The notes under the pieces: model-generated
The model's database searches: none
Seen by the model: the letters and a program-made list of their open reading frames with translations, nothing else
What the model was told of the DNA's origin: nothing
Translations under genes and position numbers: made by a program
Assembly: GCA_945902115.1 (NCBI GenBank)
Contig: CAMDLY010000004.1
Span: 1-64,000, forward strand
Direction: 5' to 3'
Source: Lishizhenia tianjinensis
GTDB lineage: Bacteria > Bacteroidota > Bacteroidia > Flavobacteriales_D > Crocinitomicaceae
DNA: 64,000 nucleotides
Shown here: positions 4,337-43,786 of the stretch, in pieces
How the letters are laid out: every line of letters begins with the position of its first letter
Numbering within the stretch: the first letter of the stretch is position 1

Positions 4337-4372
4337 CACCCCTAAATTTAAATTAATTAAATAATAACACTT

Positions 4373-4711
4373 ATGAATTCTTACGAAACTGTTTTCATTT
4401 TAACTCCCGTTTTGTCTGATGATCAGGCAAAGGAAGCAGTACAGAAGTTCGAAGGTGAGATTAAAGCATTTGGTGCTAAAATCAAACACACTGAGAACTG
4501 GGGTTTGCGAAAATTGGCATACCCAATCCAGAAAAAATCAACAGGATTTTATTTTCTTGTAGAGTTTGAATCGGATGGCAAAGTTGTAGCAGATTATGAA
4601 TTAATGATGAAGCGTGACGAGCGTGTTCTCAGATTCTTAACTGTAAAAATGGATGCTGACCACATTCCTTACTCCGAAAAAAGAAGAGCTAAAGCTGGAG
4701 TGACTGCCTAA
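4373..4711 (+). CDS. rpsF: 30S ribosomal protein S6
   Basis: [30 protein letters not shown]...[25 protein letters not shown]; followed by rpsR and rplI. Confidence 0.97.
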
Positions 4712-4738
4712 TTATTAACCCTAATTAAAAAAAAAGAA

Positions 4739-4999
4739 ATGTCAAACGATATCCGTTACCTAACCCCGATTAATATTGATATTAAGAAGGACAAATACTG
4801 CCGCTTCAAAAAGAGTGGAATTAAGTTCATCGATTACAAAGATCCTAACTTCCTATTGAAGTTATTGAACGAACAAGGTAAAATTCTTCCTCGTCGTATC
4901 ACCGGTACTTCTGCAAAATACCAGAAGAGAGTGAACAAGGCGATTAAAAGAGCTCGTCACTTGGCGATTTTACCATATGTAAGTGACATGTTGAAATAA
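4739..4999 (+). CDS. rpsR: 30S ribosomal protein S18
   Basis: [60 protein letters not shown]. Confidence 0.97.
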
Positions 5000-41561: not shown

Positions 41562-42770
41562 TTATATTTCTTTAGGAAAAGGATCTCGGAAGCCTTTATT
41601 ACTGGCAGCATATATAGACTTCTCTCGCTCATTTAGTAAACATTCCTCCAGTTCTGAAATCATTTTTTCTTTCTCAAGGTCTTGACCGATAAAAACAAAC
41701 TCATTCATTCTATCTCCCCATTTTTTATCCCATTTACTCTCAATATATTCCTGATTATCTGCGAATGATTGGTAATTAGTTCTTTCCTTGTAGGACATGC
41801 TTGCCCACCAAACACCCGCTTTTTCGACACGCGAGGAACCTCCGGCTTGGCTGAAATTGATTGCATCATTTGGTCTAGAGGCTATCCAAAATAGTCCTTT
41901 CGAACGTATTACACCACTTGGGTAATCGTCGTTCAAGTACTTCCAAAAACGTTCTGGATGAAAAGGTTTTTGGCTTCGGAATACAAATGATGAAATACCG
42001 TACTCTTCAGTTTCTGGTGTGTGTTCACCACCTTCTAATTCTTTTTGCCAACCTGCGGAAATTTGCGCCTCTTCAAAATCAAAAAGTTTCGTATTCAAAA
42101 TTTCTTTGGGGTCCACCTTGCTAAATTGTGATGTTATAATTTTAGCGCCAGGATTTAATTTTTGAATTGAGGCTTTTAAAATACCTACAGTTTCGCTGTC
42201 AACTAAATCCGTTTTATTCAAAATGATGACATTCGCAAACTCAATTTGATCAGTAAGTAGGTTTACAATTGTTCTATAATCCCCCTCCAAATCACTAAGA
42301 TTTCGGTCTATTAACATTTCGTTGGTGCCAAAGTCCTTAAAAAAATTGAAACAGTCTACCACTGTCACCATGGTGTCTATGTAACTGAACTTGGATAGAT
42401 CTATACCATTTTCTTCATCTACGAAACTAAAGGTTTGAGCTACAGGAACCGGCTCACTGATACCCGTGCTTTCAATGAGTAAATAGTCGAATCATCTTTC
42501 ATTCGCTAATTTTTCCACTTCAATCATTAAATCTTCGCGTAGCGTACAACAGATACAACCGTTGCTCATTTCTACTAATTTTTCTTCCGTTCGCGATAAA
42601 TTATTTTGCTCGTTCACCAGACGTGCATCCACGTTGACCTCGCTCATGTCATTTACAATTACAGCAACCTTAAGGCCTTCTTTGTTATTTAAGATTTGGT
42701 TCAATAAGGTCGTTTTTCCTGTTCTTAAAAAACCGCTTAATACGGTCACGGGTAGTTTTTTAATTGTCAT
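41562..42770 (-). pseudogene. COG0523/CobW-family GTPase (metal chaperone-like) interrupted by an in-frame TGA at 42492-42494
   Basis: ORFs 42492..42785 and 41562..42371 are in the same frame; reading through TGA gives ...[65 protein letters not shown] motif retained. Confidence 0.85.
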
Positions 42771-42958
42771 ACTTGTTTTAACCATTGAATAATATTCGTT
42801 AAGTGTTGCTCTCCATATAGCGCAACGAATTTCTGAGTTTCTTGGTGCTTACTGTCTTGGTAAACAGTTAGGCGTTGAGCGGCAAATTCCTTGGTAAGAT
42901 TTATCCTACATTCATTGACGATACAATTTGTCCATTCGCTAAGTGTTGTTGGAATCAT
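42767..42958 (-). CDS. Hypothetical 63-aa protein, translationally coupled to the CobW-family gene
   Basis: Short ORF; stop overlaps next ATG (ATGA at 42767-42770); promoter and dyad immediately upstream. Confidence 0.55.
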
Positions 42959-42972
42959 ATTTCAGTCTTTAA

Positions 42973-42987
42973 TGCAACTCAGTTGCA
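42973..42987. promoter_or_regulatory. Perfect 15-bp dyad TGCAACT-C-AGTTGCA, candidate repressor operator (Zur/FUR-family?)
   Basis: Perfect inverted repeat overlapping the promoter -7 element. Confidence 0.6.
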
Positions 42988-43519: not shown

Positions 43520-43786
43520 ATGAAAAAAGTGATTTTTATGTGTGCAGTGTCGTCTGCACTTTTGTTTTCTGCATGTAAAAGATTGGGTGATAGAGGTTCT
43601 AAGAAGGATACTTCGAAGGAACTATCGAAAGATGCTAAAGGTGGAGAAGAATCTAAAAACGGCGTATCTAATGAGAATGATCAAAAGATGGGACCTGAAA
43701 ACTATAATCCTAAGGAAAGTAATCCTGGAAGAAATGAAATGCCTGATGGAAATGAAATGCCTGATGGAAATGAAATGCCTGATTAA
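43520..43786 (+). CDS. Small lipoprotein with C-terminal GNEMPD repeats
   Basis: MKKVIFMCAVSSALLFSACKRLG lipobox; tandem 18-bp repeat at the C-terminus. Confidence 0.65.
   Translation: MKKVIFMCAVSSALLFSACKRLGDRGSKKDTSKELSKDAKGGEESKNGVSNENDQKMGPENYNPKESNPGRNEMPDGNEMPDGNEMPD
43733..43783 (+). repeat. 18-bp tandem repeat (aatgaaatgcctgatgga), about 2.8 copies
   Basis: Exact repeat units read directly; encodes NEMPDG. Confidence 0.9.

Follow-up and report, generated by a model that had tools for sequence, protein, structure and literature searches.

The ZigA-like gene at 41562-42785 probably once encoded a Zur-regulated zinc-metallochaperone GTPase of COG0523 and has only very recently become a pseudogene. 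On the sequence evidence we put the probability of this reading at about 0.78. It represents gene decay of an ordinary kind in a Bacteroidota bacterium from the environment; the genetic code is not being read in a new way. The lesions were few, a stop codon plus a missense substitution of an invariant residue, and the substitution could predate or postdate the stop. The features below belong to the window, which is the whole stretch of 64,000 nucleotides that was analysed.

41562..42785, minus strand: ZigA-like COG0523/CobW GTPase gene, interrupted, with PF02492 and PF07683; ZigA is the best NCBIfam model.
42492..42494, minus strand: in-frame TGA, at a position that is Arg or Lys in all 86 intact relatives.
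42708..42734, minus strand: Walker A region GFLRTGKTT, in which an invariant Gly has become Arg; most relatives have GFLGAGKTT.
42768..42958, minus strand: conserved ORF of 63 amino acids; in other Bacteroidota its relatives are found next to zigA or zur.
42973..42987, no strand assigned: palindrome TGCAACTGAGTTGCA, a Zur-type operator; the 2.5-Mb assembly has no other exact TGCAACNNNGTTGCA.

The minus-strand frame was open from 42785 to 41562 apart from the TGA at 42494-42492. The start codon of the GTPase was likely the ATG at 42770, which overlapped the stop codon of the upstream small ORF (ATGA); a second in-frame ATG was located at 42785. The Pfam cobW profile (PF02492) was covered at positions 1-80 by the upstream piece and at positions 84-179 by the downstream piece, in which CobW_C (PF07683) followed. 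Since the profile was split by the TGA yet nearly continuous, with CobW_C next, this meant one gene and not two. It was thus confirmed that a COG0523/CobW gene was split by a single in-frame TGA, as the first-pass annotation had claimed from the letters and their open reading frames, with both flanks open in one frame. About 97 codons preceded the TGA, which separated the CxCC metal-binding motif, intact upstream of it (GCICC), from the remainder of the G domain. The residues directly after the TGA were FDY, and the first start codon past it was the ATG at 42371, 40 codons downstream. The cobW nucleotide-binding domain on both sides of the TGA, CobW_C and the CxCC motif all placed the gene in COG0523. 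The Gly at the fourth Walker A position (GxLGxGKT) was lost, with the general GxxxxGKT still there, and the frame was interrupted. We therefore read the gene as a COG0523 member by descent, as a pseudogene. It was named ZigA-like because its score of 551.7 bits was below the curated cut-off of 600 bits for the ZigA equivalog (NF038288), and the intact orthologue in G051, a genome of the same genus, likewise scored 554.9 bits.

Both lesions were compared with 86 intact relatives, nearly all Bacteroidota, in an alignment. The stop position was occupied by Arg in 75 relatives and by Lys in 11, and by nothing else. Where a charged or small residue had been expected, the site thus proved to take Arg or Lys only. 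A CGN codon was found at the site in 60 of the 86, so that a C-to-T transition was a reasonable inference, even though the three nearest relatives differed from the window gene also at the codon just before the TGA. The fourth Walker A residue was Gly in 86/86 relatives and Arg in the window gene, and the oddity noticed at GFLRTGKTT was thereby borne out. Among the aligned sequences, the window gene was the sole carrier of the stop and the sole carrier of the Gly-to-Arg change. It had been suggested that orthologues be aligned for signs of two normal independent genes; none of the 86 relatives was split, and none had a stop at the TGA position. The stretch between the TGA and the ATG at 42371 was conserved at the protein level. 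Identity to the window gene was 85% for UKL13-3, 84% for G051 and 80% for a Sphingobacteriia MAG, and the tree placed the window gene beside G051 and UKL13-3 with support of 100/83.

The remainder of the gene was almost unscarred. Among 137 nearly invariant columns (conserved at 97% or more), the window gene deviated at one, the Walker A Gly, and all 83 of those after the TGA were intact. This contradicted an old pseudogene, in agreement with the first-pass annotation. One change in about 323 nonsynonymous sites of these columns corresponded to about 0.003 neutral substitutions per site, with an upper 95% value of about 0.015, which capped any neutral decay at some 1.5% substitutions per site. 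Calculation of dN/dS had also been proposed. The dN values to G051 and UKL13-3 were about 0.10-0.11, and the pairwise ratio was mostly undefined because dS was saturated. A dN of this size with saturated dS indicated purifying selection until recently. The ratio of nonsynonymous to synonymous changes was 37:51 on the window branch vs 15:54 on the two sister branches (Fisher p of about 0.01), which fits some relaxation, although saturated synonymous sites and the longer branch may partly explain the excess. Taken together, the conserved columns and the dN values suggested that, on this scale, the inactivation happened very recently, unless it is not fixed or not real. Hypermutation of the G-to-A/C-to-T class, suspected from changes near both lesions, was unsupported because this class was a minority of the window-branch changes (13 vs 29 in the opposite direction).

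Over 1.45 Mb of the genome, a scan for ORFs that lie in one frame and are separated by a single stop gave 19 candidates, the window gene included. Most of the others were either adjacent genes whose start codon came no more than a few codons from the stop, or antisense images of long ORFs; the candidate L232:5301-6005 was assigned to neither class. Three features came together in the window gene alone: the stop is followed by 40 codons that lack a start, no other long ORF covers it, and a single family profile spans it. Apart from L232:5301-6005, no second comparable split gene was confirmed in the 1.45 Mb, and a genome-wide habit of stop-split genes was rejected. A pair within the window at 4361-4999, considered as a second split, consisted of two normal neighbours, which read from their sequence as rpsF and rpsR. 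TGA terminated 130 of 612 long ORFs (300 codons or more). The genome gave 33 tRNA matches, typed by ARAGORN, which included Trp-CCA and no UGA-reading tRNA with a UCA anticodon; several expected tRNAs were absent from the draft, and this list is incomplete. The search for tRNA-Sec gave no match at the cut-off of 47 bits. The best hit, at 44.8 bits, was itself a tRNA-Ser, and the next two were a tRNA-Ser and a tRNA-Leu. The TGA usage, the tRNA-Sec search and the tRNA inventory gave no support to selenocysteine, stop reassignment or a suppressor tRNA.

Of the three options offered by the first-pass annotation, a recent pseudogene was the best supported, a sequencing or assembly error was its main rival, and programmed readthrough was without support. 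The stop could be a consensus or assembly error, or an allele of a minority strain, so that the gene works in the living population. We considered this unlikely, though worth serious attention: the assembly is a draft of 2.5 Mb in 105 contigs, the remainder of the gene is almost perfectly conserved, and a single-base artefact would give exactly such a picture. However, an artefact of this kind would have to coincide with an independent change, elsewhere in the gene, of the invariant Walker A Gly. The lack of another confirmed stop-split gene in the 1.45 Mb speaks against a high substitution-error rate, and the ratings of the assembly were 99.94% for completeness and 0.96% for contamination. 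Programmed or leaky UGA readthrough, which would make some full-length GTPase from the intact and conserved downstream frame, was judged very improbable. The relatives never carry a stop at that position, TGA is in regular use as a terminator, the tRNAs found, an incomplete set, include Trp-CCA and no UCA anticodon, and the product would still have the Walker A change. It would be similarly surprising if UGA leakiness gave a low, regulated level of a full-length metallochaperone impaired in GTP binding in this lineage.

The remaining explanations fared worse. The two ORFs could be independent genes, one for a short N-terminal protein and the other for a protein initiated at the ATG at 42371, each kept for its own function. 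In keeping with this, both ORFs are present, and RV0106 of Mycobacterium tuberculosis is a known COG0523-like protein without GTPase motifs (PMC2770081). We regarded this as extremely unlikely, since the first start leaves out 40 codons of sequence that is conserved as protein, and no relative is split. That the TGA encodes selenocysteine was next to incredible. Selenoproteins related to CobW do exist (NF041053) and carry a UxxC motif (PMC9312934, PMC13188914), but the relatives have Arg or Lys and never Cys at the TGA position, no UxxC is formed by the residues that follow, and the upstream CICC is intact. Neither a tRNA-Sec nor Sec at the redox Cys position was found, and the window gene resembled NF041053 in superfamily and in having a TGA within the gene.

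The window gene was compared with known systems. Its subgroup of COG0523 has a role in zinc homeostasis (PMC2770081). The window gene is like ZigA (NF038288) in full-length match to the model, CxCC, G domain, CobW_C and upstream Zur-type operator; it is unlike ZigA in its lower score, the stop in frame and the Walker A change. E. coli YjiA (PDB 1nij, 4ixm) is of the same fold family, with its GFLGAGKTT P-loop and CICC aligned, but it has an intact Walker A and no stop. RV0106 is also a COG0523 relative and has lost GTPase motifs; it is described as expressed and Zur-repressed (PMC2770081), whereas in the window gene a stop cuts the frame short.

The palindrome at 42973-42987 was the same in form as the boxes preceding the GTPase genes of relatives. 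A Zur-like gene was intact elsewhere in the genome (G000:C44:15619), with a one-mismatch box in front, and its product was 56% identical to the Zur-like protein of UKL13-3. This operator and this gene suggested that the interrupted gene belongs to a Zur regulon. Low zinc would relieve Zur, the small protein would be made, and translation of the GTPase would halt after about 97 codons. Since the TGA lies between CxCC and the remainder of the G domain, normal translation yields a fragment that keeps the altered P-loop and CxCC but has lost CobW_C and most of the GTPase. No working GTPase would be made, and Zur derepression would thus give an intact 63-aa protein and no working chaperone. The genome held no further COG0523 gene to compensate; its other PF02492 matches reached at most 35 bits, compared with 183 bits for the window gene. 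The loss would be tolerable because the gene appears dispensable, as a match of any kind was found in only 6 of the 86 genomes of the genus. It appears that this genome was sampled early in the loss of its single COG0523 gene, at a stage when the intact Zur-like regulator gene, the operator and the operon partner remain. The significance beyond this lineage is little.

Full-length orthologues within the genus were found only in G051, G016 and G066, and the latter two lay in a distant clade of the tree. A block of about 1.36 kb around the gene was 78% identical in G051, and positions 30001-56000 of the window gave no match to the G051 neighbourhood outside it. The surroundings of the block differed in G051 and UKL13-3. 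From this sporadic occurrence and the isolated block, the gene probably moved or was repeatedly lost. Close ZigA-like copies were also present in L067, L076 and L043, contigs filed under Nostoc, Planktophila and Thalassobius, which may reflect transfer or binning contamination. In G016 (C1:1240811) and G066 (C80:37192), the only exact Zur box precedes not the ZigA-like GTPase but the zur gene, next to a MerC-like ORF.

The analysis also brought to attention the conserved 63-aa ORF, which lies beside zigA and zur genes of Bacteroidota and is in neither Pfam nor NCBIfam, where no family scored above cut-off. Its product is possibly an unnamed small protein of the Zur regulon. Relatives of about 60-80 aa were found in L011, L026, L029, L044, L046, L054, L058, L066, L089, L095 and L115, with the pattern W..CI...C.I.L...F...R......ET..F...YG..H, and in several Bacteroidota the ORF was upstream of zigA or near zur. 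The ATGA overlap with the GTPase start was found in G051 too. In UKL13-3, the Zur-like gene was divergent from the small ORF, a MerC-like gene, a third gene and the GTPase. At about 2900-3150 of L011 (G051), the Zur box next to the intact GTPase operon was overlapped by a possible remnant of a Zur-like gene, starting with MQQCC; another Fur-family gene of G051 at C28:14678 had its own box about 370 bases upstream. On the plus strand of the window, 43520-43786 encoded a putative lipoprotein of 88 amino acids, whose C-terminal end consisted of three tandem copies of GNEMPD.
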